A stretch of 53,170 bases of DNA from a virus, in the IMG/VR virus record IMGVR_UViG_3300009703_000024, positions 1 through 53,170 of that record; one strand, 5' to 3'. Shown here piece by piece: positions 24,464 through 53,059 of the stretch (position 1 is its first letter; each line of letters begins with the position of its first letter). A program made the translations under genes and the position numbers. The notes beneath the pieces are model-generated. The model was not told the origin of the DNA. It searched no databases and worked only from the letters and a program-made list of their open reading frames with translations.

Positions 24464-25615
24464 TCAACTCAAGTCACGAATCTTCCCACTTGCCTTAAAG
24501 AAAGTGCAAGCCAATTCTCCCATTGTATGGAATAATCCCATTTGACCTAGACGGTTGATACCGAATGGGTCACCTGTTTCAATTCCGGACTCGTGGTAAA
24601 GTGTAGGTTTTGCTGTTGTGAACCATAGATAATCAGTATCTAGGAAATACATACGACTTGAACCACCGCTTTCCTTGTGAACATCCTTTGATGGAATGAT
24701 TGGTACACCGTTGTAGGTTGCTACTACGAATCCACCTTGAAGGCCCGGAACACCCTTTACGCCATTGACGCCGGGTGTTACACGCTTCATTTCAACGAAT
24801 CGCTGTTGTGGCTGCAAGAGTTGTTGAATGGTCTCAATGGTATCATATCCAGTAAGGATAACCTTTGGCTGACCACCAGCCTCCCATACTTGTCGGAACA
24901 TTCCATCAAGTGTATTGAGAGTTAATGCTCTTTCTGCGCCTGTTGCACCTGCATCCACCTGTGCGTCATACCATGAAGCACTACCACTGCTGGCACGAGT
25001 TAGGTTGTAGATGTTGTGGTCTGTAAGTGCGCTTACATCACCGAATGCCGCTGTTTCCACGAAAGACGAGGAAGTAATGCGGTCAAGTGATTCAAAGTCG
25101 TTACCTGCTGGTGTATCAATGTCTGAAAGCAACATTTGGTTAATACCTTCACTGTGTGCCTTTGCCATTTCCATCTTCATAACTGCTCTTGCATCTCCAA
25201 GACCATCATCCTTGTCTGCCAAGAACATTGCTGTTTCTGACAAGTCAAAGGTGTTAGCGACTGTCTTTGGCTTGGTGCTGACATGAGCAAAGGTTGGCTT
25301 GGTTGTTTCTGGTAGTGTTGCATTTTCACCAACACCAGTTAGCGCACCCGGCTTTGCGGTTACGACTCTCCAACCACTCTTTTCCCACGGTTTCTTAGGT
25401 AGAATGCTAAAAGCATTAAACTCTTGATTAAGTTGGGACCAGACCTTTCGGCCAAAAATTGCTTGGTAAGTTCCTCCTGTGCTGCTCATCAAAGGCGCAT
25501 CTGCCTTCAATAAGTCTGTTCCTGAATACGCCCATGCGTTCTGGCCTGTGCCAGCCCCATAGTAAAGGCGTTCCATATCTTCAATTGTACGAATATATCC
25601 TGTGCTACCACTCAT
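24464..25615 (-). CDS. Major capsid protein, HK97 fold
   Basis: 383 residues, preceded by AGGAGATGA 5-6 nt before the ATG. The pattern is that of HK97-type coat proteins: an N-terminal arm, then FGRKVWSQLNQEFNAFSILP with a following beta segment (WRVVTAKPGALTGVGENATL), a spine-helix region (DARAVMKMEMAKAHSEGINQ) and a C-terminal P-domain strand pair ending in GLFHTMGELACTFFKASGKI. It sits directly downstream of the prohead protease, as in HK97-like modules. Codon use here favours C-ending codons more than in neighbouring genes, as expected for the most highly expressed gene; that impression is by eye. Confidence 0.88.
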   Translation of the reverse strand: MSGSTGYIRTIEDMERLYYGAGTGQNAWAYSGTDLLKADAPLMSSTGGTYQAIFGRKVWSQLNQEFNAFSILPKKPWEKSGWRVVTAKPGALTGVGENATLPETTKPTFAHVSTKPKTVANTFDLSETAMFLADKDDGLGDARAVMKMEMAKAHSEGINQMLLSDIDTPAGNDFESLDRITSSSFVETAAFGDVSALTDHNIYNLTRASSGSASWYDAQVDAGATGAERALTLNTLDGMFRQVWEAGGQPKVILTGYDTIETIQQLLQPQQRFVEMKRVTPGVNGVKGVPGLQGGFVVATYNGVPIIPSKDVHKESGGSSRMYFLDTDYLWFTTAKPTLYHESGIETGDPFGINRLGQMGLFHTMGELACTFFKASGKIRDLS

Positions 25616-25629
25616 TTAATCATCTCCTA

Positions 25630-26958
25630 TTATTCTATGTTCCCCTGCAAGGCTCTTTGGCCTAATTCTTCTAATGCTTTCCAACCATCGATTCCATTAC
25701 CTAAAGCGGCAAATTCATCGTGGGTTGGAACTCTTACATCCGATTGTGCTGGAACTGGAACTGCGGATTTTTGTATTTCCGCATTATCTGTGCGTAGTGA
25801 TTCAATTTCAGCCTTTAGTGCTGCAATTTGTGAGCCGTGGTCGTTTTCCTTTTGAATTGCCAACGCCTGTTGGGTTTCTGCTTCATAGCGGTCATTCCAT
25901 TCTTTCTCAACAAGTGCCTTTACTGCCTCTTCATCACGAATAGCAGAATAAGCACCGTAACCACGCTCAAGAGATTGTGGTGAAAGGTCAAGACCTTGCT
26001 TGATAACTTGTCGGTTACCTTGTGGTGCAGGGTTTTTCATACCTGCAACTTGCGGTTGCTTGATTACATACTTGTTAGATTTTGCATTAGGCAACTTTGG
26101 TGCAGAAGCGAGTGTTGCATCTTCACCACTACCAATCAAGTCGCCTTGACCACGGTGATTAAAGCCATGTGAACCATCAACACCAACCATGTAAGATTTT
26201 CCAAGACCAAAGTGGTCTCGTACTGAATTCAAATCAACACCCTGTTCATGTGCAAATTTTTCCAAACTGTCGATGTAAGCAATTGCCGCTTTCTCATCAA
26301 CATTCGTCTTTTCCACATGCGTAGTAGTTGGTTGTTCCTCCACTGCATCGTTTTCTTCCAATTTCTTTGTTATACGTGATAAAGCATCACGCACTTCGCT
26401 TAGGGTTTCTGTTCCATTTGTCATATCATCATCATCCATTTTTAGTAGTGTATATTGTGATTCGGGGTTAATACCCTTTTTGCACAGGGTAATCTCATGT
26501 AGTTCCATATCTGTAATTTCACGGTGTGAACCGTGTTCAGGTGTAGTCTTATTAATTCTGAAAAGTGCTTGACCACCGATGGAAAATGCTCGTAATTCGC
26601 CACTGCGAACCTGTTTTTGCACTTCACGGGCCTTTTCAATGTCATTGCGAATTTTACAAACAACGAATAAACCGTGGTCGTCAACTTCTGATTTCCAAAC
26701 TCGCCCTTCACTATCACTATAACTAGGGAGAACTTCACCAACTTGAATCCCACTGTGTGCTAATTGCACATTGCGGTATGCTTGATTCTCCATGAAGCCA
26801 TTAAATGCCTTTTTGAGTGCAGATACAGGGATTCTATCTCCCTGCTTATCCACCATATCAACACTAGCATAGCCCGCTATTACCAAATCTCCATTATTAT
26901 CTGACTTCAAAATAAAATCAGAACCAACGGCAGACCAAATAGCAGTAGCGGCTGTCAT
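25630..26958 (-). CDS. HK97-type prohead protease with long scaffold-like C-terminal region
   Basis: 442 residues from ATG 26958. The longer open frame back to 27069 would run into the upstream gene and adds a non-conserved 37-residue His/Cys stretch. Residues ~15-175 match U35 prohead proteases: VIAGYASVDMVDKQGDRIP, then QLAHS with catalytic His68, then RAFSIGG with nucleophile Ser126, then the LHEITLCKKGINPES closing motif. The rest (~175-442) is charged and partly coiled-coil (ALAIQKENDHGSQIAALKA and EIESLRTDN), like a scaffolding domain. The capsid gene follows after 14 nt. A protease-scaffold fusion is known in other HK97-type viruses; here it is inferred. Confidence 0.85.
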   Translation of the reverse strand: MTAATAIWSAVGSDFILKSDNNGDLVIAGYASVDMVDKQGDRIPVSALKKAFNGFMENQAYRNVQLAHSGIQVGEVLPSYSDSEGRVWKSEVDDHGLFVVCKIRNDIEKAREVQKQVRSGELRAFSIGGQALFRINKTTPEHGSHREITDMELHEITLCKKGINPESQYTLLKMDDDDMTNGTETLSEVRDALSRITKKLEENDAVEEQPTTTHVEKTNVDEKAAIAYIDSLEKFAHEQGVDLNSVRDHFGLGKSYMVGVDGSHGFNHRGQGDLIGSGEDATLASAPKLPNAKSNKYVIKQPQVAGMKNPAPQGNRQVIKQGLDLSPQSLERGYGAYSAIRDEEAVKALVEKEWNDRYEAETQQALAIQKENDHGSQIAALKAEIESLRTDNAEIQKSAVPVPAQSDVRVPTHDEFAALGNGIDGWKALEELGQRALQGNIE

Positions 26959-26980
26959 TGTTTCGCTCAATTTTATGTTT

Positions 26981-26990
26981 TTATATTTAA
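26981..26990 (-). promoter_or_regulatory. Possible TATA box for the protease-capsid transcript
   Basis: The minus strand reads TTAAATATAA, 22 nt before the protease ATG (26958), in a short AT-rich gap after the 1155-residue gene. An archaeal TATA box usually lies about 25 nt before the transcription start, which would make this mRNA nearly leaderless. No clear ribosome site precedes the ATG, which agrees. Confidence 0.4.
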
Positions 26991-26992
26991 TA

Positions 26993-29900
26993 CTACTGTT
27001 GAGGGCTTGCCCCTTCAGGTGGCATTGGAGGCATCGGTGGTGGTGTCGGTTCTTCCTTAACAGGCACATTCACTTCTGCCTCTTCCTTTTCCTCTTGTGG
27101 TGTTTTCACAGGAAAACGCAAAGTTGCGTTAGAGCCTTCAATTTCAATCTCACCTTCAATTCCTTCACCCTCTTCATCAATTGTTTCTATTTTGATATGT
27201 TGTGGTTGTGGTGGCATACTACCATCTTGGGTTCGATATGGGTCAAACATTGGTGTTGCCTCTTCATCGGTTAGTTGTGTAGGGCCACGAGGCGCAGTAA
27301 GCATATCCATCATTCCAGACCACCCTCCACTTTGAACACTTCCAGTTACACGAGCAAGCGGGCTACCCATATTTTCAATTATTTCATCATCAATTGCTTC
27401 ATTGACAGACCACAAACCCTCTTCGGTTCGTTCTAAACCATATTCACCACCAAATTCTGTTAGCATTTCTTCTGTAAGGCCACTTATTTTGGCTTTCAAT
27501 TCCGCTGGTGTGAGTGATTCATTCATATCTGTCAATAATTTACGGGCATTAATTAGTAAATGTTGAGAATTAGATTCGTTACCTGCTGTATCTAATAATG
27601 CGGCACGAGTAAACACCATACTAGACTTAGTAGTAATAGTAGGTGGATAAAGACCCACTTGTGGTATATCGTACTTTAACAAATGTGTAGCAACTGGCCC
27701 CCACAACCCCACCTGCATTTTAGCATGAATAGCCAGTGGGCTATCTGGTATTATATTTTCAATGTTTAGGATTTCCCCATTCCAAGAGCCTTTTACTAAT
27801 AAGGGGGTGGTGTGACCAACATATTCCAATACAATATTACCATTGCGTGATGAAACATTGGGTATTGGGCCATTTATTTTAGTTATATCATCACCGTTTG
27901 GTGAAAACAATACCCAACGATGGTGTGTTTCTTTACCTTTAATGAAAGCCGAATTAGCATCACGAAGCCATGTTTGGTTTGTTTCAATAGAATCTATATT
28001 TTTTTGTAAGCCATCTCTATCGGTAAATTTACAATCAATAGGCATAGGGAATGAAACACCTTCATCAGTTTCATACATTGTTCGCAATATTTGTAGCCTA
28101 TCTTCTAATGGTTCCATGTGTATATCATCCCCCTTATGAACCAATAAGTCGATAGCCCTGAAATGTTTATCTTTCAAAACACCATCAAAAACACAATCAC
28201 CATCCTGTTTACGAATACTATCACGAACCTCACCGGGTAAACTAATGTCTTTACCTCGTGCGTTATGGGCCTTTATGTGACCACCTTGTTTAGTGATGTA
28301 AAGGCGTTTACCTTCTGGTTTACTTTGAACCACCCAATCTCCACTAAATCCTTTCAAATCATCCACTGAACTCAAATCATATATTGTGTGGGCAGGTTGT
28401 ACTATTTTTTCAAAGACCCCGGTTGGTTCATAATCATCCGATTTCCATAAGTCACCACTTAAAATTGGTGTATGGCCCCTCTCATTTGTAGCAAAAAGAG
28501 CAGGTATATCATTAATTTTAGGTTGCATTTGATGGTCTATGATGATAGGGTTTACTTTTTTGAGATGATTTTCGTGAACTGTTCGTTGTAATGTTTCAAA
28601 TGGTTTGTCTTTTACATCAAATTGTATTCCTTGTTCATCATTATTCCATTTATACGCAAGTGTAGCGGGCATTTTATGGCCCCAAGCATCCATATCTCCA
28701 GATAAATATACTGGTGGTGTTGTCGCCATAGAATTTGGATGAACTGGCCCAACTGGTACTTCTTGACTAACTAAACCGTCACCAACAAACTGTGGTGCAA
28801 TTGTTTGATGATTTGTATTCCCTCTCATCATCTGATAGTTGGCTGCTTGTGCTAACTGTTGCACATTACCACGAGCAATCGTATTTGCTCTAACATCAGT
28901 TGGGTCTATCGGGGTGAATAAGTTAGAGCCATACTTTTCCATTAGTGGTATTGACATATCTCTCATCATCCTACCTATATTTTCATCACTATTTTCATAA
29001 TGGTCGTTATGATAACTATGATATTCTTCATCTCCTGTGTGTCTTTCAGAACTTGAACCACCACGGGGCCAACCCATATCAGTATGGGCGTTTATCACAC
29101 GACCCAATGGATGAAGAGTAAGTGCTTCTGATGGTAAAATCATCCTACTACCATTACCCTTTATTTCGCTTGGGTGAACTTGGTGGTGATTCGCCACAGA
29201 CGACCAAAGACCCCTGCGCCGATTAAGAGAACGCACCCGTGGGTGGTCAGAATCAGATTCCCAACCAGTAGCGATTGCAGAACGATGTGGGTGGTTCAAA
29301 ATCCTTTCATCATTTGCGGTTTGAGGGAAAAAGGTTGAACCGCTACTGTGAAAACCATCACCACTATCACTTAATGGATGTTCTTTATTGTTCACCATCC
29401 CCATCAATTCATCACCAAGCCAACCACTAAAAGCCGCTGGATATGATTGTTTCAATACTTCGACCAGCGAACTACCATCTCGCCCCACACCCCCTCCATG
29501 TTGAAAGGGTTGCCAGTGATGATGTGTATGAGATGGTAATATCTCTTCATTATCATTAATATATGGAGATTTATAATGACCCAAACCCGATGGTGGTAAT
29601 TCTCCCGACACTGGCCCGTGTCTATCAGAAGGTCTTTTCCACCAATTTAATAATGGCATAAATCTTTCAAACCAATTGCGCTTTGCCCTCCCCCATGAAA
29701 TTCCAGTTTCGGGCGCAAAATCATTCATAATTTTTCTAGCATTGCCCTCTTGAGCATTTTCTGTTTGACCTAATTTTTTCAACATATCCATAAAAGATTC
29801 TCTTTGCTCAAAAGAATTCCATTCTAAACCAAATAAATTAGATAGTAAACCCATTTTTTCCCAATCTTGCATTTTATACTCTTTATACTCATCATCACCC

Positions 29901-30460
29901 AAAAAAGAATGCCTACCCTCTCGGTCGTCTTTGTATAATTGATGTTGGGTTTCGTGGGGTCTGCCCATTAATGCTTCAAATTCTTGTGGCATTATTCCCA
30001 ATCGTTCATTATTAGCCATTTGTTCAAGAACATTTCGACTATCCCATAAATGTTCAATGAAGTGTGGTTCACCCCATTGACTACCATGTAATAATGGCAT
30101 CGTGGGTAGTTCTCTTGAAAAGGGATGCCTCTTTCCAAACGCATTGTTTTCATCTGCTTGGGGCCAGTCTTGAGCATAAGTTGTCGCAAACTTACGTTGC
30201 CCTGCTAAAAAATCATCATAGGCATCTGGTAAACTTAAATTGGTAACTGGTGATGGGTTATCTATATTCCTCATTGAATATGATGATGGATTTTCCATAT
30301 TCATCATACCAAGTAAAGCGGTATCTTCCTTTTCAATCTCTTGACCACTTTCATAAAAATCCGCAAATGCCTTCAAATAAATATTAGAATCAAATGGGTG
30401 ATTCGTCACCAATGACTGAAAAGCATCGGTTCTTATTCTAATGAATTCTTCTTTATCCAT
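26993..30460 (-). CDS. 1155-residue head-region protein with degenerate ATP-dependent ligase-like domain
   Basis: The start has GGGGTGAT 4 nt upstream. Residues 1-680 have no recognised domain and are rich in His, Asn, Gly and Pro. Residues ~690-950 resemble the adenylation domain of ATP-dependent DNA ligases: motif I KPEGKR at 714-719 (K-x-x-G with the usual Asp replaced by Glu), then CVFDGVL at 756-762 where the family has a catalytic DGE (Glu replaced by Val), then HFRAIDLL at 766-773 and EDRLQILRTMYE. Altered motifs suggest a changed or lost nucleotidyl-transfer activity. The end is acidic and proline-rich (PPPMPPMPPEGA), like part of the portal C-terminus. It lies between small head proteins and the protease. 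A virion-internal or packaging-linked protein is possible. Confidence 0.72.
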   Translation of the reverse strand: MDKEEFIRIRTDAFQSLVTNHPFDSNIYLKAFADFYESGQEIEKEDTALLGMMNMENPSSYSMRNIDNPSPVTNLSLPDAYDDFLAGQRKFATTYAQDWPQADENNAFGKRHPFSRELPTMPLLHGSQWGEPHFIEHLWDSRNVLEQMANNERLGIMPQEFEALMGRPHETQHQLYKDDREGRHSFLGDDEYKEYKMQDWEKMGLLSNLFGLEWNSFEQRESFMDMLKKLGQTENAQEGNARKIMNDFAPETGISWGRAKRNWFERFMPLLNWWKRPSDRHGPVSGELPPSGLGHYKSPYINDNEEILPSHTHHHWQPFQHGGGVGRDGSSLVEVLKQSYPAAFSGWLGDELMGMVNNKEHPLSDSGDGFHSSGSTFFPQTANDERILNHPHRSAIATGWESDSDHPRVRSLNRRRGLWSSVANHHQVHPSEIKGNGSRMILPSEALTLHPLGRVINAHTDMGWPRGGSSSERHTGDEEYHSYHNDHYENSDENIGRMMRDMSIPLMEKYGSNLFTPIDPTDVRANTIARGNVQQLAQAANYQMMRGNTNHQTIAPQFVGDGLVSQEVPVGPVHPNSMATTPPVYLSGDMDAWGHKMPATLAYKWNNDEQGIQFDVKDKPFETLQRTVHENHLKKVNPIIIDHQMQPKINDIPALFATNERGHTPILSGDLWKSDDYEPTGVFEKIVQPAHTIYDLSSVDDLKGFSGDWVVQSKPEGKRLYITKQGGHIKAHNARGKDISLPGEVRDSIRKQDGDCVFDGVLKDKHFRAIDLLVHKGDDIHMEPLEDRLQILRTMYETDEGVSFPMPIDCKFTDRDGLQKNIDSIETNQTWLRDANSAFIKGKETHHRWVLFSPNGDDITKINGPIPNVSSRNGNIVLEYVGHTTPLLVKGSWNGEILNIENIIPDSPLAIHAKMQVGLWGPVATHLLKYDIPQVGLYPPTITTKSSMVFTRAALLDTAGNESNSQHLLINARKLLTDMNESLTPAELKAKISGLTEEMLTEFGGEYGLERTEEGLWSVNEAIDDEIIENMGSPLARVTGSVQSGGWSGMMDMLTAPRGPTQLTDEEATPMFDPYRTQDGSMPPQPQHIKIETIDEEGEGIEGEIEIEGSNATLRFPVKTPQEEKEEAEVNVPVKEEPTPPPMPPMPPEGASPQQ

Positions 30461-30471
30461 TTTATCACCCC

Positions 30472-31284
30472 TTAAGAGAGGCGACCCGCTATATTTTCTA
30501 TTTGGCTGGCTATTTCCTCTATAAGCCCAACATTGCCGTAATTACCACTTTTCTTTATTTGTGCAAGGCGTTCTTCCATTGGTGCTATATTCCAATTACC
30601 ATCTGCTCGATTGCCACCATCGTTTAGGTGCATGTGCAAACTACTACTCTTTTCATCATAGCCTGTTTGTGATACTGATGGTATTTGGGCCTTTTCAGAT
30701 ATGAACGTGTTTTTTCGTGAAGGGGCATCAGTATAATTAGGTAGCACTTGATTGGTGCTATAACCCCTTGATTCAACTGGAATGCCGCCACCGTGGTCGT
30801 AAAATTCCGGTACTGATGATTTGTCAGTTGGCTCTTGCTCATACTTGACTACGATACCTTTGCTCTCTAGGAACTCGGTTGTCTTATCCATCTTCGTTTT
30901 AATGTCTGATGGCTTACAACTCGGACAGTATGCCGACCCGCTATCATCTGCGGCTTCGTGGTGCAAACCCTCATAATTCCTAATTTCCGCAGAACAACCT
31001 TCCTTAGAACAAATCCGTTCTTCCTTCCCAAAGTTAGGCTTATCATCGTCACCCTCTTTGGGCTTGTTATGCTTCTGTTTCTTGGATTTGGGTAGTTTTG
31101 GTTTTTTCTCATCACCCTTGTTAGGTTTGAAAGAACTCGCATCTGGTCCACAAACACATGGATTCGGGGGGCAATCATTAGAACAATATGTATTTTTTTG
31201 AATTACTGCACTTTCCAGTTCTTTTACTATTTGTAATAGTTCTCCTTCAAGAGTCTGTGCTGGGTCTTTCCATGTTGGTTGCAT
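30472..31284 (-). CDS. Cysteine-rich, lysine-rich head-region protein
   Basis: 270 residues with AGGTGATAA upstream of the ATG. After a short helix comes a Cys/Pro cluster (YCSNDCPPNPCVCGP, 33-47), then a Lys-rich disordered region (about 55-85), then a likely zinc site (ICSKEGCSAE ... YCPSC, ~90-122). The C-terminal half is polar, with a last helix (GLIEEIASQIENIAGRLS). No family is recognised. The gene lies between the portal-proximal accessory genes and the ligase-like gene. Confidence 0.65.
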   Translation of the reverse strand: MQPTWKDPAQTLEGELLQIVKELESAVIQKNTYCSNDCPPNPCVCGPDASSFKPNKGDEKKPKLPKSKKQKHNKPKEGDDDKPNFGKEERICSKEGCSAEIRNYEGLHHEAADDSGSAYCPSCKPSDIKTKMDKTTEFLESKGIVVKYEQEPTDKSSVPEFYDHGGGIPVESRGYSTNQVLPNYTDAPSRKNTFISEKAQIPSVSQTGYDEKSSSLHMHLNDGGNRADGNWNIAPMEERLAQIKKSGNYGNVGLIEEIASQIENIAGRLS

Positions 31285-32683: not shown

Positions 32684-34462
32684 TTATAACCCATATCTCC
32701 GATTCATATTATTTATGCGCTCATCCACATTCTTTTCTGAAACACTTGCTTTGTCCCTTTTATCCTGTTCTGTTTGGCTCATGTGGTGCTCACCATCAAA
32801 GCGACTAACATCTTTAGGTGATTTGCCCCCACTTCGCCTACTATTGATATTTAATTGTGAATCACCCTCCATGCGTAAAGGTGGTAAATCAGTATCAAGT
32901 GTAGTCATAAGAGCAGCGGGTACTGGAACTGACCCATGTATGGGGTCTGATGTGGTACGCTTCAATATATTAGCCATTGACGGGGGTATATTATCCCACA
33001 TTGCTTTTTGAACTGGTGCAGGTGCTACTGCCCCTTCGGGTGGCATCGGTGGTGCGGGCGGTGCTTCCTTGTAATCGAAGTGCAAATAGCCATCATCATC
33101 ACGGAGGGATGCTTCATAGCCCGATTGTTTCATTTGCATCATGTTCCTAATCGCCATTTCATCACGGCGCATAGTCATAATTTCATCTTCCTCTTCATGT
33201 GGTTGTAAAGACATTTTCCATTCAGTAATTTGTAAGGCTTGTATTAATAATGGTAGTAGTTTATCATTGTATAAATTTTGACTAGCGGCTAAAGCACGAT
33301 TAGTCACCACGATTTGCATACCTTCATTGTTAAGACCTCCACCAGATACATCATTCATAAACACATTTGATACACCAAAGAATGATGAAATACGCTGTCT
33401 AATGTCGTCTTTAATAGGGATATATTGTAGTTCTTCAAGTGTGTCCATCATACGAACATACTCAAGGCCACCACGCCCACTCTCCGTTTCAACACCAACA
33501 GTAGGGATATACTGCGGGTCACGCTCAAGGTGTTCCTGTATGTTTCGTGCTGTTCTCTCCACCGTTTCAAGGTTGGATGATTTGATAACCATAACCCCTC
33601 TTGGCATCCTACGCTTTTGATATGCAGCATAGACATAATTATCCATAGCAATTAATGTATTCACTTGACGCCATAATGTGGCTACTGGTGACCGCCCATA
33701 CAATTTAGATGGTGACCATTTACTGATATGAATAACCTCACCTTCGGTATAGACTTGACCTGCACCTACACCCGCCAAATTCATAAATTGAATAGGTATT
33801 ACTGGTAATCCAGTTTTAGGGCATGTTTCATCAGGGTCACTGGTTCGGAATGAACGGTCAAGTAAACTTGTATATTGTTTACCTCCACGAATACCCCTCT
33901 TATCAGCAACAATACGCATAAAAATTGGGTCAGCACGAGTTATCTCTTTGATGCGATAGAATTTTGGTTTGCCCGTAGCAGGGTCTACAAAGTATTCTTT
34001 TGTTAGGATAATATAAGCATCATCAACGATATTCAAATCCATCTCAATTTCACGTAAAACTTCAAGGAATGATTGCCCCATACGGTTATCACTTTCAAGT
34101 AGTGCCTTTGCATACTCTAATTGCCCTTTATCCGCAGGGCGTGTTTCAGAACCGCACTTTTCACATTCTTTTATTTCTTTATTGTATGTTTCTTCACATT
34201 CACGACATTTCGCCACAAATTTCGGTTCCCATTTCCAACCTTTTCGGAATGTTTCAGTAGCCAAATGATTGAGAATTGAACGCAATACTAAACATTCATA
34301 CGCAGCCGCATAAAGAGCAGGGATGGTAATTCCTTGTAATAGTGGTGGTTCTTGAACACCAGAAGTAAACAACGGCATTTCAGGTGTTGGGGTGCTATGT
34401 CGCTCCATATCGACCCCAAGAGCCGCAAAAAGACGGTCAATTCGTTTCTTTTCAGTAGTCAT
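32684..34462 (-). CDS. Portal protein with zinc-ribbon insertion
   Basis: 592 residues with the window's best ribosome site (GGAGGTGAT). Portal features: the N-terminal ILNHLATETFRKGWKWEP region, a wing with NIVDDAYIILTKEYF, a clip region (VIHISKWSPSKLYGRSPVAT), the long stem/crown helices (ETVERTARNIQEHLERDP) and the SSFFGVSNVFMNDVSGGG loop near the C-terminal third, then an Ala/Pro-rich tail. Unusual is a four-cysteine zinc ribbon at residues 86-103 (C86, C89, C100, C103). The protein forms the dodecameric DNA gate at one capsid vertex and docks TerL. TerL lies two genes upstream. Confidence 0.87.
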   Translation of the reverse strand: MTTEKKRIDRLFAALGVDMERHSTPTPEMPLFTSGVQEPPLLQGITIPALYAAAYECLVLRSILNHLATETFRKGWKWEPKFVAKCRECEETYNKEIKECEKCGSETRPADKGQLEYAKALLESDNRMGQSFLEVLREIEMDLNIVDDAYIILTKEYFVDPATGKPKFYRIKEITRADPIFMRIVADKRGIRGGKQYTSLLDRSFRTSDPDETCPKTGLPVIPIQFMNLAGVGAGQVYTEGEVIHISKWSPSKLYGRSPVATLWRQVNTLIAMDNYVYAAYQKRRMPRGVMVIKSSNLETVERTARNIQEHLERDPQYIPTVGVETESGRGGLEYVRMMDTLEELQYIPIKDDIRQRISSFFGVSNVFMNDVSGGGLNNEGMQIVVTNRALAASQNLYNDKLLPLLIQALQITEWKMSLQPHEEEDEIMTMRRDEMAIRNMMQMKQSGYEASLRDDDGYLHFDYKEAPPAPPMPPEGAVAPAPVQKAMWDNIPPSMANILKRTTSDPIHGSVPVPAALMTTLDTDLPPLRMEGDSQLNINSRRSGGKSPKDVSRFDGEHHMSQTEQDKRDKASVSEKNVDERINNMNRRYGL

Positions 34463-35699: not shown

Positions 35700-37132
35700 G
35701 CGTCTGCCCACCCTAATCTCTTGGCCCATGATGAACCATCAAGAACTACTATATTGTCTTTATATTCCTTAGTCGCTTGTACTGCCAAAGCCAAAGCGAT
35801 TACACTATCGTCATGTTTACCCAATGATTCCATTCTCCCGTTTGGTAACATAGTAAACATAGATAGTTCGGATAATAAAATATCTATTAGTCTAAGAGTA
35901 GCACCTTCATCCTTTTGAGGGATAATCAAATGCCGTTGTTCAAAGTGCAATTGAAGTGCATGGATAACTGCCTCTTTACGCATACGACTCATAGTAAAGG
36001 GTTTGATAGGTAAATCACTAATCTCCTTCAATACTTGATGGAATGCCTGTGCGAAATTGTTTGTTTCCAATTCAACAATAACTGGATTGTACCTAGCACT
36101 TAACTCTATGATTTTATCAATTTGAGAGTTAAAATCCATACCCTTTTCACGGTGCATCCACACTATCCGCTTATGTCGGTTTTCATCCATAGCGATAACT
36201 ACCATACAAGTATAATCGGCTTTTCGGTCAGGGCTAATAGCGGGGTCCCAACCAATGTAGTAGTTCTCTTCAACATCATCATCACCTTTTTGTGAATCAA
36301 ACTCAAAGGCATAATCAGCATTTTTACACGGGTCGGTCATTTCGTTAGGGAATAAACTAGATTCACTCGCTATTGGTTTACATAGATATTCACGAGTAAA
36401 TGCAATAGAAGTCATTTCATTACGGCGAGAGTGTAGTGCTTCTAGTGACCACCGATTAGGCCATAGGGGTTCACCAGTAGCCTCACTAATAGCGGGGTAT
36501 TCCCTCACTTCATACCCACTTAATGATTTCAATTCACTATACAAATCAGTATAGGAGAACGGCGTTCCAACAATACACAGTTGCGCTGTGTGGTGAAGCA
36601 CAGGTAATAGAGCAGTATAGAACCATTGAGCAATAGAAGCCAATTGAGTATCGGCTTCACTAGATAATATATCGTCAAGCACCACAATATCAGGGTGCGC
36701 CCCACGAACCGATTTACCAACAGACATAGCAGTAATTGATGATTTATTGGTCATTTTGAACTTTTGTTTCGCCCAACCTCTTTTTGGTTTCAAATGCGAA
36801 AGAACGGGGCTACTCATAATTAACTCATCCATTTTTGCCATGTGGTCAATAGATTGGTGCTGACTATGTGAAAAGAATAATACTTCTGTGCCGGGATTGT
36901 ACGCCATTTTCCATAGCAAATAACAACGGTAAAAGACTGATTTACCGTGGTCACGAGATGCTATTACACAGGTTTTATTATTTTTTTCCGACATTTCATA
37001 CCATTCGTTGTGAAAATGAGCCAATTCGTATTTTTCATTTACACTACAAACATCTTCAAAAAAGTATCTGAAATCACGGCGACCCATCTCCCAATCAACC
37101 TTACTGGCAAGGTTGAGTACAGATTCGCTCAC
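35696..37132 (-). CDS. Terminase large subunit (packaging ATPase-nuclease)
   Basis: 478 residues from GTG 37132, which overlaps the previous stop as GTGA; an earlier GTG at 37153 is possible. ATPase: Walker A ASRDHGKS at ~58-65, Walker B DIVVLDD at ~148-154, coupling motif VGTPFS at ~188-193. RNase H-like nuclease: first Asp in GWDPAIS (~296), middle acidic VELETNN (~354), last GKHDDSV (Asp ~441/442). All key residues are present. It pumps DNA through the portal and cuts concatemers or headfuls. The next gene downstream is the 415-residue unknown, then the portal. Confidence 0.93.
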   Translation of the reverse strand: MSESVLNLASKVDWEMGRRDFRYFFEDVCSVNEKYELAHFHNEWYEMSEKNNKTCVIASRDHGKSVFYRCYLLWKMAYNPGTEVLFFSHSQHQSIDHMAKMDELIMSSPVLSHLKPKRGWAKQKFKMTNKSSITAMSVGKSVRGAHPDIVVLDDILSSEADTQLASIAQWFYTALLPVLHHTAQLCIVGTPFSYTDLYSELKSLSGYEVREYPAISEATGEPLWPNRWSLEALHSRRNEMTSIAFTREYLCKPIASESSLFPNEMTDPCKNADYAFEFDSQKGDDDVEENYYIGWDPAISPDRKADYTCMVVIAMDENRHKRIVWMHREKGMDFNSQIDKIIELSARYNPVIVELETNNFAQAFHQVLKEISDLPIKPFTMSRMRKEAVIHALQLHFEQRHLIIPQKDEGATLRLIDILLSELSMFTMLPNGRMESLGKHDDSVIALALAVQATKEYKDNIVVLDGSSWAKRLGWADA

Positions 37133-38214
37133 GATACGCCACCTTCCGCCCACCCACCGGGCAGAAGGCTATAATCAGAAGCACCTTCCTGTGGTGGCTT
37201 CGTGTCTTTAATTAAACCAAAAGGTAGTAGTGATACATCATCATCTGCACTTAATTCAAAGTCTTCACCTAACCAGTTGGTAAGGTTCTCTCTAGCAGCA
37301 CCTTCAGGTTCCTTCTTTTTAGCAGGGTCATATATGGAATGGTCAGGTGGTGTAGCCGCAGGTGCAGGTGGTGTAGCCGCAGGTGCAGGTGGTGTAGCCG
37401 CAGGTGCAGGTGGTGTAGCCGCAGGTGCAGGTGCAGGTGTAGCCGCAGGTGCAGGTGCAGGTGACATAGCGTCTACTGCGTTTGCTGCCCTTTGTGCTTC
37501 CAAGCCAGCAAGGGCTTCATCCCTTTTTGCTTGCGCTTTAGGAACAGTCATTCTTTGAGTGTTGCCAAGAAATTGTTGATGAATTTTATCTTTTTCTGCG
37601 TTCACACTTGGTGGTGTTGCTGTTTGTTGTGGAACAGAAGCACCGCCTTTCAATCCTTGAAGTTCTGCACTACGTTCTTTGCTTCGCCTATCTAATTGCC
37701 CTGCTGTGGTGTTATCAGTTGCAGTTGGAAGTGACGGTGGGGTTGCTTGAACTGACTGGGCCATACCTGTCAAATTGGAATTATCTCTAGGTTTCGCCAT
37801 ATCTGCCCTCATTGCATCCACTTTAGGGGTGGGTTTGGGTGCTTGAACATCTTGAATCAAACCACCGTGTTTTTGTGCAAACTTTTGTGGTGTTACTTCA
37901 TTTTCTTTTGTGTGCTGTTCTTGTAACGCATACCATTCTTTACGCCTTTCAGGGCTTAATGCCTTTATGTCTTTGTGGCGTTGCCACCATGCACTAGGAC
38001 CACCTTGTGGGCGGTGTTTCCACCATGCTCTAGGACCACCTTGTGGGGCATTTAATGTTTCGTCTACCCCTTGATTAAAGTTCCTCGGTGCTTTAATGAC
38101 ATCATCCCAAACAGCATTGAAAACACTATCAGAATCGACACCTTTGCGTAAGGTTGTTTTACCTATCATTTCACTACGGGCTTTGAGCAAAAGTAAATCA
38201 TAACGGTCTGACAA
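37129..38214 (-). CDS. Pro/Ala-rich disordered protein upstream of TerL
   Basis: 361 residues, probably starting at a TTG (38214) with GGGGG 8 nt upstream. Near the N-terminus it carries the F-x3-W-x2-V peptide (SVFNAVWDDVIK, 30-41). A tandem peptide repeat follows (PRAWWKHRPQGG / PSAWWQRHK, about 60-80). The middle is Pro/Gln-rich, and residues ~250-290 are seven-residue Pro-Ala-Ala-Thr repeats. It is mostly disordered. The stop overlaps the TerL GTG. A small terminase role is possible from position, but there is no helix-turn-helix, so I leave it unassigned. Confidence 0.62.
   Translation of the reverse strand: MSDRYDLLLLKARSEMIGKTTLRKGVDSDSVFNAVWDDVIKAPRNFNQGVDETLNAPQGGPRAWWKHRPQGGPSAWWQRHKDIKALSPERRKEWYALQEQHTKENEVTPQKFAQKHGGLIQDVQAPKPTPKVDAMRADMAKPRDNSNLTGMAQSVQATPPSLPTATDNTTAGQLDRRSKERSAELQGLKGGASVPQQTATPPSVNAEKDKIHQQFLGNTQRMTVPKAQAKRDEALAGLEAQRAANAVDAMSPAPAPAATPAPAPAATPPAPAATPPAPAATPPAPAATPPDHSIYDPAKKKEPEGAARENLTNWLGEDFELSADDDVSLLPFGLIKDTKPPQEGASDYSLLPGGWAEGGVS
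37344..37462. repeat. In-gene 21-bp tandem repeat (Pro-Ala-Ala-Thr coding)
   Basis: A unit close to TGTAGCCGCAGGTGCAGG plus TGG is repeated about four times, with two shorter or longer variants, coding the PAPAATPP tract. High identity between copies suggests recent slippage expansion. It is not a CRISPR array: the copies are contiguous and in frame. Confidence 0.85.
37984..38047. repeat. 28-bp tandem duplication coding a WW-containing peptide
   Basis: The two copies, 37984-38011 and 38020-38047, differ at one base and encode GGPSAWW and GGPRAWW peptides in the 361-residue protein. A recent in-frame duplication. Confidence 0.8.
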
Positions 38215-38226
38215 ACTTCAAACCCC

Positions 38227-39159
38227 CTACAATGTGCGCCTAATTTTAATATGTGCTATGTTTTTGTGAATGTTATTTGCTGAATCATAGGCGGTAGTAG
38301 GGTCGTCAAACGAAGTAGTGAAATTACCTTGACCCTGTTCTCGTAGTTTGTTTCGCCCTTGACGCCGTTGATTCCAGTTACTCAATCCTTGAATAGCCCC
38401 CGAACCACCAAAAGTGGCAAGATTCAACAACGGATTCATCCCTATACCACCTGTCTTTTGTGATTGGGCCGTAGCATTGGCAACTTGGGCTTGTTGTGCC
38501 ATTGTTGCTGGGTCATTACTAACACCGCCTCCGCCACCACCTGCTGGTGCTGGTGCTGGTGCTGGTGCTGGTGCTGGTGCTGGTGCGCCGGGTACACCGC
38601 CACCTCCCATATTGAAGTTTATACCACCAGCAAACCCAGTTGGACCTTGTGGACCTGCGGCTGGGCGTGGTCGTGCTGGTGGACCTTGTGGGTGGCCGGG
38701 TGGAAATTTCCCCCCTCTCGATGGTGTAGTTACTGGTACTGGTGGTTGTGTTGGTCGTCTTGGACCTGCTGCTGCTGGTCCCGCTGCTGCTGCTGGTGCG
38801 CCGGCTGGTGGTGCTGGTGCGCCGGCTGGTGGTGGTGGTGCGCCGGCTGGTGGTGGTGGTGCGCCGGCTGGTGGTGGTGGTGCGCCGGCTGGTTGTGCGC
38901 CGGCTGGTGGTGGTGGTGCGCCAACTGGTGGTGGTGCTGCTGGTGTTGTAGCACCGGGTGGACCTGCTGGTACGGTGTGTTGTGTTGTTGGTTTTTGGGG
39001 ATTTGAACCCTTTGGTAATGCGAATTGATTAGGTTTGAAAAAGTCAGCATTTGTATTTTGTTGTGTTGTAGTTAGGTTTTTACTAATCATTTCACGCTCT
39101 CTACGCATTAACAACATTGCTCGCCTATCCGCACCAAACTCGTTTCTCATATTAACCAT
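38227..39159 (-). CDS. Pro/Gly/Ala-rich low-complexity protein
   Basis: 310 residues with GGTGG 8 nt upstream of the ATG. A basic N-terminal helix (ADRRAMLLMRREREMISKNL) is followed by ~180 residues of collagen-like Pro/Gly/Ala sequence: seven-residue GAPPPPA units (~80-120), then Ala-Pro dipeptides (~190-205). The C-terminus returns to ordinary sequence (NPLLNLATFGGSGAIQGLSN). The last third is Gln/Asn/Gly-rich and basic. No family. Possibly a fibre-like or disordered virion protein. It lies 13 nt before the next gene. Confidence 0.6.
   Translation of the reverse strand: MVNMRNEFGADRRAMLLMRREREMISKNLTTTQQNTNADFFKPNQFALPKGSNPQKPTTQHTVPAGPPGATTPAAPPPVGAPPPPAGAQPAGAPPPPAGAPPPPAGAPPPPAGAPAPPAGAPAAAAGPAAAGPRRPTQPPVPVTTPSRGGKFPPGHPQGPPARPRPAAGPQGPTGFAGGINFNMGGGGVPGAPAPAPAPAPAPAPAGGGGGGVSNDPATMAQQAQVANATAQSQKTGGIGMNPLLNLATFGGSGAIQGLSNWNQRRQGRNKLREQGQGNFTTSFDDPTTAYDSANNIHKNIAHIKIRRTL
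38541..38587. repeat. GGTGCT hexamer tract (Ala-Pro repeat)
   Basis: Roughly seven to eight tandem six-base units on the plus strand (coding Ala-Pro on the minus strand) inside the 310-residue gene. Likely to vary in length between relatives through slippage. Confidence 0.85.
38797..38910. repeat. 21-bp tandem repeat (GAPPPPA coding)
   Basis: A unit close to GCGCCGGCTGGTGGTGGTGG is repeated four times, with shorter variants at both ends, coding seven-residue Gly-Ala-Pro units in the 310-residue gene. Confidence 0.85.
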
Positions 39160-51436: not shown

Positions 51437-53059
51437 ATGATGATACCAAATACCAATGGGCCGATATTTATTATGAAAGAGGGGACCGAAAGAAATCAAG
51501 GGAGAGCCGCCCAGTCTAACAACATTGCCGCCGCTAAAGCAGTGGCCGATGCTATTAGAACTACTTTAGGGCCAAAGGGAATGGATAAAATGCTCGTGGA
51601 TGAGGGTGGTGATGTAATCATCACAAACGATGGGGCCACTATTCTTCGTGAAATGGATATTGAACACCCTGCTGCTAAAATGATTATTGAAGTTGCTAAA
51701 ACCCAAGAACAGGAATGTTATGATGGAACAACCACAGCGGTTATTCTAGCAGGTGAACTACTCAAAAAATCAGAAGAATTGGTTGAGCAAAATATTCACC
51801 CTACTGTTATTTGCAGTGCGTTCCGTAAATGTGGAGACCAGATACAGACAACTCTTGATGATTTAACAATGAGTGATATTGACTATCTCAATATAGCAAA
51901 AACCGCATTAACTGGAAAATCCGCAGATTCAATAAAAACATTTCTAGGTCAAATATGTGTCGATGTTGTTGCAGCCTTAGATAACAATAGCCGTACTACC
52001 CAACTGAAAGGTTCCGTGGATTTGGATTTGGTAAATGTAGTGAAGGCGATTGGTGGTGAAGTTCAAGATAGTACAATGTATGATGGTATTATCCTACCAA
52101 AAGAACGATGTCATAGTGGTATGCCCCACCGTGTTAATACACCTAATATTTTAATAACAAATTCCCCCATTGAAGTAAAAACTACCGAAATGGATGCCAG
52201 CATACAAATCACCGACCCCAACCAAATTACAGCCTTTCTCGAACAGGAAGAGAAACAAATCAAGGATATTGTTAATTTAATTGTGAGTAAAGGTATCAAT
52301 GTGGTGGTGTGTCAAAAGGAAATCGATGATTTAGCAAAACACTATTTTGCTAAAGTAAATATATTAGCAATTGAAAAAGTTAAGAAATCTGACATTGATG
52401 CCCTTTCATTAAGCACTGGTGCTAAAATAGTGACTAATTTAGATGATTTGAAGGATGATGATTCTGATTATGATTTAGGCCAATGTTACGGTGCAGTAGA
52501 GGAAAAGAAAGTTGGTGAAATGCCTATGATATTTTTTGACGACCCTGTATGTGGTGCAGTAACCCTATTACTTCGTGGTGGCACAGTGCCATTCGTTGAA
52601 GAAATCGAAAGGGCATTTGACGATGCAGTGGGTGTTGTGGCGGTGGCTTGGGCTGACAATACAATAGTTACTGGTGGTGGTTCCACATTCCTCGCTCTTT
52701 CCGGTGCATTGCACAAATTAAGTAAAGAGAACAGTAATGGCAGGGAAAGAATGGCTATTGAAGCATTTGCCGATGCTTTAGAAATTGTACCACGCACCTT
52801 GATAGAGAATGCGGGTTTGGACCCAGTGGATGAAATGGCTACTTTGCGTAATATCCACCGTAATAAAAAGCCAACCAAAGAATATACCCCTACTCATTAT
52901 GGGGTAAATGTCGAAGGTGGTGTTATGGATATGGCAGAAGCGGGTATTTGCGAACCACGCCGTGTTGTTGAACAGGCCATTAAGTCGGCCATTGAAACTG
53001 CTACTATGATTTTGCGTATTGATGATGTAATTTCATCACGAAAGGCTGGGCCTCAATAA
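51437..53059 (+). CDS. Group II chaperonin (thermosome/HSP60) subunit
   Basis: 540 residues, normal length for archaeal thermosomes. Landmarks in order: [26 protein letters not shown], and ATP-binding DGTTTAV in the equatorial domain; [20 protein letters not shown] and the apical/lid segment [53 protein letters not shown] and [12 protein letters not shown]; the C-terminal [20 protein letters not shown]. The end (SSRKAGPQ) lacks the Gly/Met-rich tail of many thermosomes. It forms a double-ring folding chamber, here perhaps for the giant tail or capsid proteins. It may be host-acquired. The gene stands alone on the plus strand. Confidence 0.93.

Follow-up and report, generated by a model that had tools for sequence, protein, structure and literature searches.

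An ORF of 1155 aa that starts with ATG and lies on the minus strand at 26993..30460 of the window (the whole 53,170-nt stretch of viral DNA analysed here) on balance probably encodes a conserved magrovirus head-assembly or virion protein carrying an exapted, non-catalytic nucleotidyltransferase domain of the DNA ligase type. A preliminary description made from the sequence alone had reported the ORF and proposed a repurposed ligase fold. The ORF is real, with its minus-strand encoding added here as a clarification, and the repurposed fold is well supported by a predicted ligase fold, a family-wide loss of catalytic residues and purifying selection on the domain. The features of this region, with the motifs tallied on 27 family sequences, are as follows:

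32684..34462, minus strand: portal protein (PF04860; phrog_18178, E 8e-58)
30472..31284, minus strand: upstream neighbour of 270 aa, no assigned function, C-terminal ~130 aa conserved among relatives
26993..30460, minus strand: whole ORF, head-cluster protein with a ligase-like domain, 1155 aa, family members in IMG/VR
28421..30460, minus strand: N-terminal residues 1-680, family-conserved by its conserved columns, no known domain, model mostly of low confidence
27881..28363, minus strand: predicted nucleotidyltransferase (ligase-like) core, residues 700-860, from AlphaFold2 and Foldseek, the most conserved region
28304..28321, minus strand: motif I, residues 714-719, KPEGKR (ligase K-x-D-G-x-R)
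28178..28186, minus strand: motif III, residues 759-761, DGV (ligase DGE)
28136..28153, minus strand: motif IIIa, residues 770-775, IDLLVH, adenine-stacking aromatic lost, D771 and H775 invariant
27962..27979, minus strand: putative motif IV equivalent, residues 828-833, NQTWLR (ligase E-G-x-x-x-K/R), register taken from the model strand 830-834
27902..27916, minus strand: putative motif V equivalent, residues 849-853, WVLFS (ligase W-x-K-x-K)
27656..27880, minus strand: beta-rich segment, residues 861-935, in the position of the ligase OB domain, from strands in the domain model
26996..27655, minus strand: C-terminal residues 936-1155, helical, then an acidic and proline-rich tail, no known domain
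25630..27069, minus strand: downstream prohead protease (S78; PF04586 E 1.2e-9, phrog_23555), given as the longest ORF, true start probably internal
24464..25615, minus strand: major capsid protein (phrog_24667 E 3e-50, SU10_MCP)

In the order of transcription, the portal gene is followed by four small genes, the 1155-aa gene, the prohead protease and the major capsid protein, and this order was kept in 18/18 relatives compared, with the near-identical copy L003 counted separately. The location between portal-side genes and the prohead protease, as first described, was thus confirmed in the window by Pfam and PHROGs and in the 18 relatives. By this conserved position among head genes, the 1155-aa protein is quite likely a head or virion protein, and it is solely from the position that we infer a virion-internal or DNA-end protein, as the preliminary description had suggested; a gene in a head operon need not encode a virion protein. 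The N-terminal ~680 residues, described at the outset as lacking a known domain, indeed had none in Pfam, PHROGs, NCBIfam or PDB sequences. A tblastn search of annotated phages with the 1155-aa protein yielded no match, and the search of PDB sequences with the protein and its alignments yielded no meaningful one, the sole listed match, an ankyrin design at E 0.35, being ascribed to chance. Two weak PHROG matches were not relied on, namely phrog_4938 (a 50-aa family without assigned function; E 2e-4, residues ~858-893 of the family members L033 and L036) and phrog_7857 (internal virion protein; E 0.08, in one family member).

Two neighbouring genes had features of their own. The 270-aa protein (30472-31284, minus strand) was always encoded immediately upstream of the 1155-aa gene, was conserved only over its last ~130 residues and had Cys-rich N-terminal parts in many relatives; a MuF homologue was considered for it and rejected, since Pfam gave no match and nothing MuF-like was seen by eye in the relatives. 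The portal protein (32684-34462, minus strand) has a zinc-ribbon-like insertion, C-x2-C...C-x2-C, at residues ~85-106 with weak Pfam zinc-ribbon matches.

The window is best called a magrovirus, i.e. a virus of Marine Group II archaea, because of the following combined features: a Caudoviricetes head module (Pfam, PHROGs); a capsid protein whose nearest counterparts among annotated phages belong to the Druskaviridae haloviruses HVTV-1 and HCTV-1; a thermosome chaperonin; a family B DNA polymerase (PolB) found on six long relative contigs, not in the 53-kb window itself; and one relative that sits in the single-cell genome of an uncultured Poseidoniales archaeon. The chaperonin, of archaeal type and encoded at 51437-53059 on the plus strand, opposite to the head operon, is consistent with clade 1 of Nishimura et al. 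2017 (PMC5332604). No end repeats were found in the 53-kb record.

As judged from its structural model, the region of residues ~672-936 almost certainly has the nucleotidyltransferase fold of DNA ligases and capping enzymes. AlphaFold2, supplied with an alignment of virus sequences only, modelled residues 672-936 with a pLDDT of 82.3 and a pTM of 0.73, and in the Foldseek comparison the best PDB matches of this model were ATP-dependent DNA ligases (E 3.8e-10, probability 1.00), the top ones all being DNA ligases, with capping guanylyltransferases and snurportin ranked below them. Foldseek against viral structures agreed (best match A0A516LT18, E 4e-15), and the full-length model, poor as a whole (pLDDT 52) and better at ~700-930, again placed ATP-dependent DNA ligases first. 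The listed PDB matches had query-normalised TM-scores of ~0.45-0.54, so that the fold family is clear, yet the model is no close copy of any ligase. Directly C-terminal to the core, the domain model has a beta-rich segment where ligases carry their OB domain, a candidate OB domain.

At the sequence level, Pfam did not detect PF01068 above its cut-off in the 1155-aa protein, and gave two sub-threshold matches, SPN1_m3Gcap_bd at 704-802 (E 0.046) and DNA_ligase_A_M at 766-800 (E 0.14), which go beyond chance in that both families have the nucleotidyltransferase fold. With hhalign against archaeal ligases, the motif IIIa block alone was aligned (E 1.7e-4, probability 50%). Given such weak sequence similarity, the case for a ligase rests on the predicted fold and the motif order, and these two agree with the ligase-like order that had been read over residues ~690-950, the structure prediction having been the check proposed for it.

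The catalytic motifs were tallied across 27 family sequences including that of the window. Motif I reads S713-K714-P-E-G-K-R719 and motif III F758-D-G-V761, confirming the KPEGKR in place of K-x-D-G-x-R and the DGV in place of DGE that the preliminary description had singled out. The retention of K714 (24/27) and G717 (27/27) is a counterweight to a loss of catalysis; the Asp at +2 of motif I was found in 0/27, and its Arg in 19/27 (His in 8/27). Motif III kept its Asp in all 27 and its Glu in none, while motif IIIa kept the Asp in 27/27 and the aromatic in 2/27. At the motif IV equivalent, Glu828 was present in one sequence and Arg833 in 27/27, and in the motif V equivalent Trp849 was invariant (27/27) and each of the two lysines was absent from all sequences. 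A register of 836-841 for motif IV was replaced by 828-833, since the domain model has its strands at 830-834 and 845-852. If motif IV were shifted by one residue, D/E829, found in 25/27 (the window has Q here, and L018 has S), might supply the acidic residue in those 25 sequences. As read from the alignment, the motif damage is therefore wider than the motifs I and III first pointed out.

K714 itself was replaced on two branches, by Arg in the sister contigs L033 and L036 (support 100/100) and by Gln in L018, and therefore is not essential to the family; K713 was considered as a substitute nucleophile and rejected, residue 713 being S in the window, L033 and L036. From ligase biochemistry, lysyl-AMP should no longer form once the nucleophile, the metal-binding acids and the lysines of motif V are gone, and the standard route to this intermediate, judging from the sequence, would very probably be closed to the domain. 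Compared with the ATP-dependent DNA ligases of PF01068 (Thermococcus, Pyrococcus and human LigIV), with which it has the predicted fold and the motif order in common, it retains the motif I Gly, the Asp of III and IIIa, the Arg after IIIa and the motif V Trp, whereas the motif I Asp, the motif III Glu and the motif V lysines are absent, the motif IV Glu is nearly so, the nucleophile is not conserved, and the domain is embedded in an 1155-aa head-operon protein.

The ligase-like domain is nonetheless the best conserved part of the 1155-aa protein and is under strong purifying selection. Mean pairwise identity was 0.59 in the domain, 0.50 in the N-terminal part and 0.43 in each of the two following parts, and dN/dS of the domain was 0.012-0.095 in the ten pairs where it was computable. 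Decay as a pseudogene was rejected on the open frames and the low dN/dS. Invariant residues were also found outside the ligase catalytic set, among them H775, D834, K841 and H846.

The reading that we prefer is that a DNA-ligase-type nucleotidyltransferase domain was incorporated into a magrovirus head-assembly or virion protein and then exapted, so that it would no longer transfer AMP. Its role would instead be to bind as a rigid module, the most likely target being DNA or a partner head protein close to the portal at the stage of assembly or packaging, and the contacts would be made by invariant residues outside ligase catalysis, H775, D834, K841, H846, W849 and others. Direct contact of the domain with DNA is a tentative part of this proposal. 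Exaptation is supported by the same head-operon slot in the 18 relatives together with the strongest constraint on exactly the ligase-like domain. A precedent is T4 gp63 (RNA ligase 1/tail-fibre attachment), a viral protein of the ligase superfamily whose morphogenetic role in tail-fibre attachment is separable from its RNA ligase activity (PMC3004832); it differs in being an active RNA ligase that acts on tail fibres, and is no giant head-operon protein.

An unlikely but still live alternative is that the protein travels in the virion as a 'polyvalent' protein and is injected into the host together with the DNA, where its dead ligase domain would bind DNA-repair or defence factors of the host or serve as a decoy for them. 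It is kept alive by the giant proteins with enzyme domains that related archaeal viruses encode at the matching head-operon slot, just before the protease: HVTV-1 gp115 and HCTV-1 gp109 contain a zeta-toxin kinase domain, with an additional ADP-ribosyltransferase in HVTV-1, domains by which they differ from the 1155-aa protein. Effector domains fused to head proteins are moreover a known theme (PMC5512222), and the gene lies among virion genes, in the head operon, in the window and the 18 relatives. However, hhalign detected no homology of the 1155-aa protein to HVTV-1 gp115 or gp113, and effector domains usually vary among relatives, whereas the ligase-like domain is always present and most conserved. 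Pfam and PHROGs scans recognised no effector domains in the protein.

It is improbable that the domain is instead a pseudo-enzyme sensor, still binding a nucleotide, a cap-like or an adenylated end as the snurportin fold binds the m3G cap. In favour of it are the sub-threshold Pfam match to the snurportin cap-binding domain and the Foldseek matches to the snurportin chains 3nc0_B/E, but the adenine-stacking aromatic and the phosphate-contacting lysines of ligases are lost. Snurportin-1, a eukaryotic import adaptor and not a nucleotidyltransferase, has the same superfamily fold in its m3G cap-binding domain (PF21974), and the likeness, consisting of weak profile and Foldseek matches, is therefore no proof of function.

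The published annotation of an ATP-dependent DNA ligase in magrovirus genomes (PMC12999244, PMC10768690) implies that the protein, with its altered motifs, is still an active ligase or nucleotidyltransferase and seals the viral DNA. This is very improbable: K714 and G717 are retained in most members and a viral enzyme could add something to a host order in which no ATP-dependent ligase was detected, but metal- and phosphate-contacting residues are missing, K714 is changed to R or Q in three contigs, the gene lies within the head operon, and the host single-cell genome already has an NAD+-dependent ligase.

The host data behind these points are that PF01068 was found in 0/21 genomes of the host order (G006, G011-G030) and in 37/60 genomes across the phylum, and that the NAD+-dependent ligase was detected in the one single-cell host genome tested. 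On the viral side, motif scans and profile searches, which detected the T7 and archaeal ligase controls, revealed no other ligase in relatives of 99.9, 100.9 and 108.3 kb; completeness of these contigs is uncertain, and the absence of any other ligase is therefore likely, not proven.

The exaptation reading also bears on the published gene inventories. DNA ligase is counted with the replication genes in the ICTV profiles of Apasviridae and Aoguangviridae and in a 2023 survey. For group A magroviruses, an 'ATP-dependent DNA ligase' adjoining the prohead protease is given for contig_156409 (Philosof et al., as cited in PMC7318539), and from this adjacency the annotated ligase is very probably the same gene as the 1155-aa ORF, matched by gene position as cited there; that gene carries a ligase annotation, whereas no intact catalytic centre was found in the protein described here. 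Crediting a DNA ligase to the replication genes thus looks unsafe for this magrovirus lineage, and what is listed as a 'DNA ligase' of these viruses may in fact be a protein repurposed for another, probably structural, role. The wider proposal, that the magrovirus ligase has turned lineage-wide into a non-enzymatic part of the head or portal region, so that the viral ligase invoked as an argument for host-independent replication would be missing from the lineage, which would rely on the host NAD+-dependent ligase, is close to an even call, though falling slightly short of one. If it is true, one replication function has been mis-assigned for this lineage and the view of host dependence for DNA ligation changes, in viruses that infect some of the most abundant archaea of the surface ocean and are known solely from sequence. 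The family would also offer, with many members sampled, an example from a viral head operon of an enzyme fold that stays under strong selection after its catalytic residues were lost.

Two minor observations were made elsewhere. At 37129-39159 on the minus strand of the window, two adjacent proteins of 361 and 310 aa, without assigned function, have Pro/Ala- and Gly-rich low-complexity tracts, encoded by DNA with tandem repeats of 6-42 bp, a local G+C of 0.50 versus ~0.41 and a reversed GC skew. In HVTV-1, gp115 (L128:6623-10564; 1313 aa), annotated as a zeta toxin only, also has an ADP-ribosyltransferase exoenzyme domain at 1148-1297 (E 1.4e-8), a domain pair that fits a virion-delivered multi-enzyme protein.
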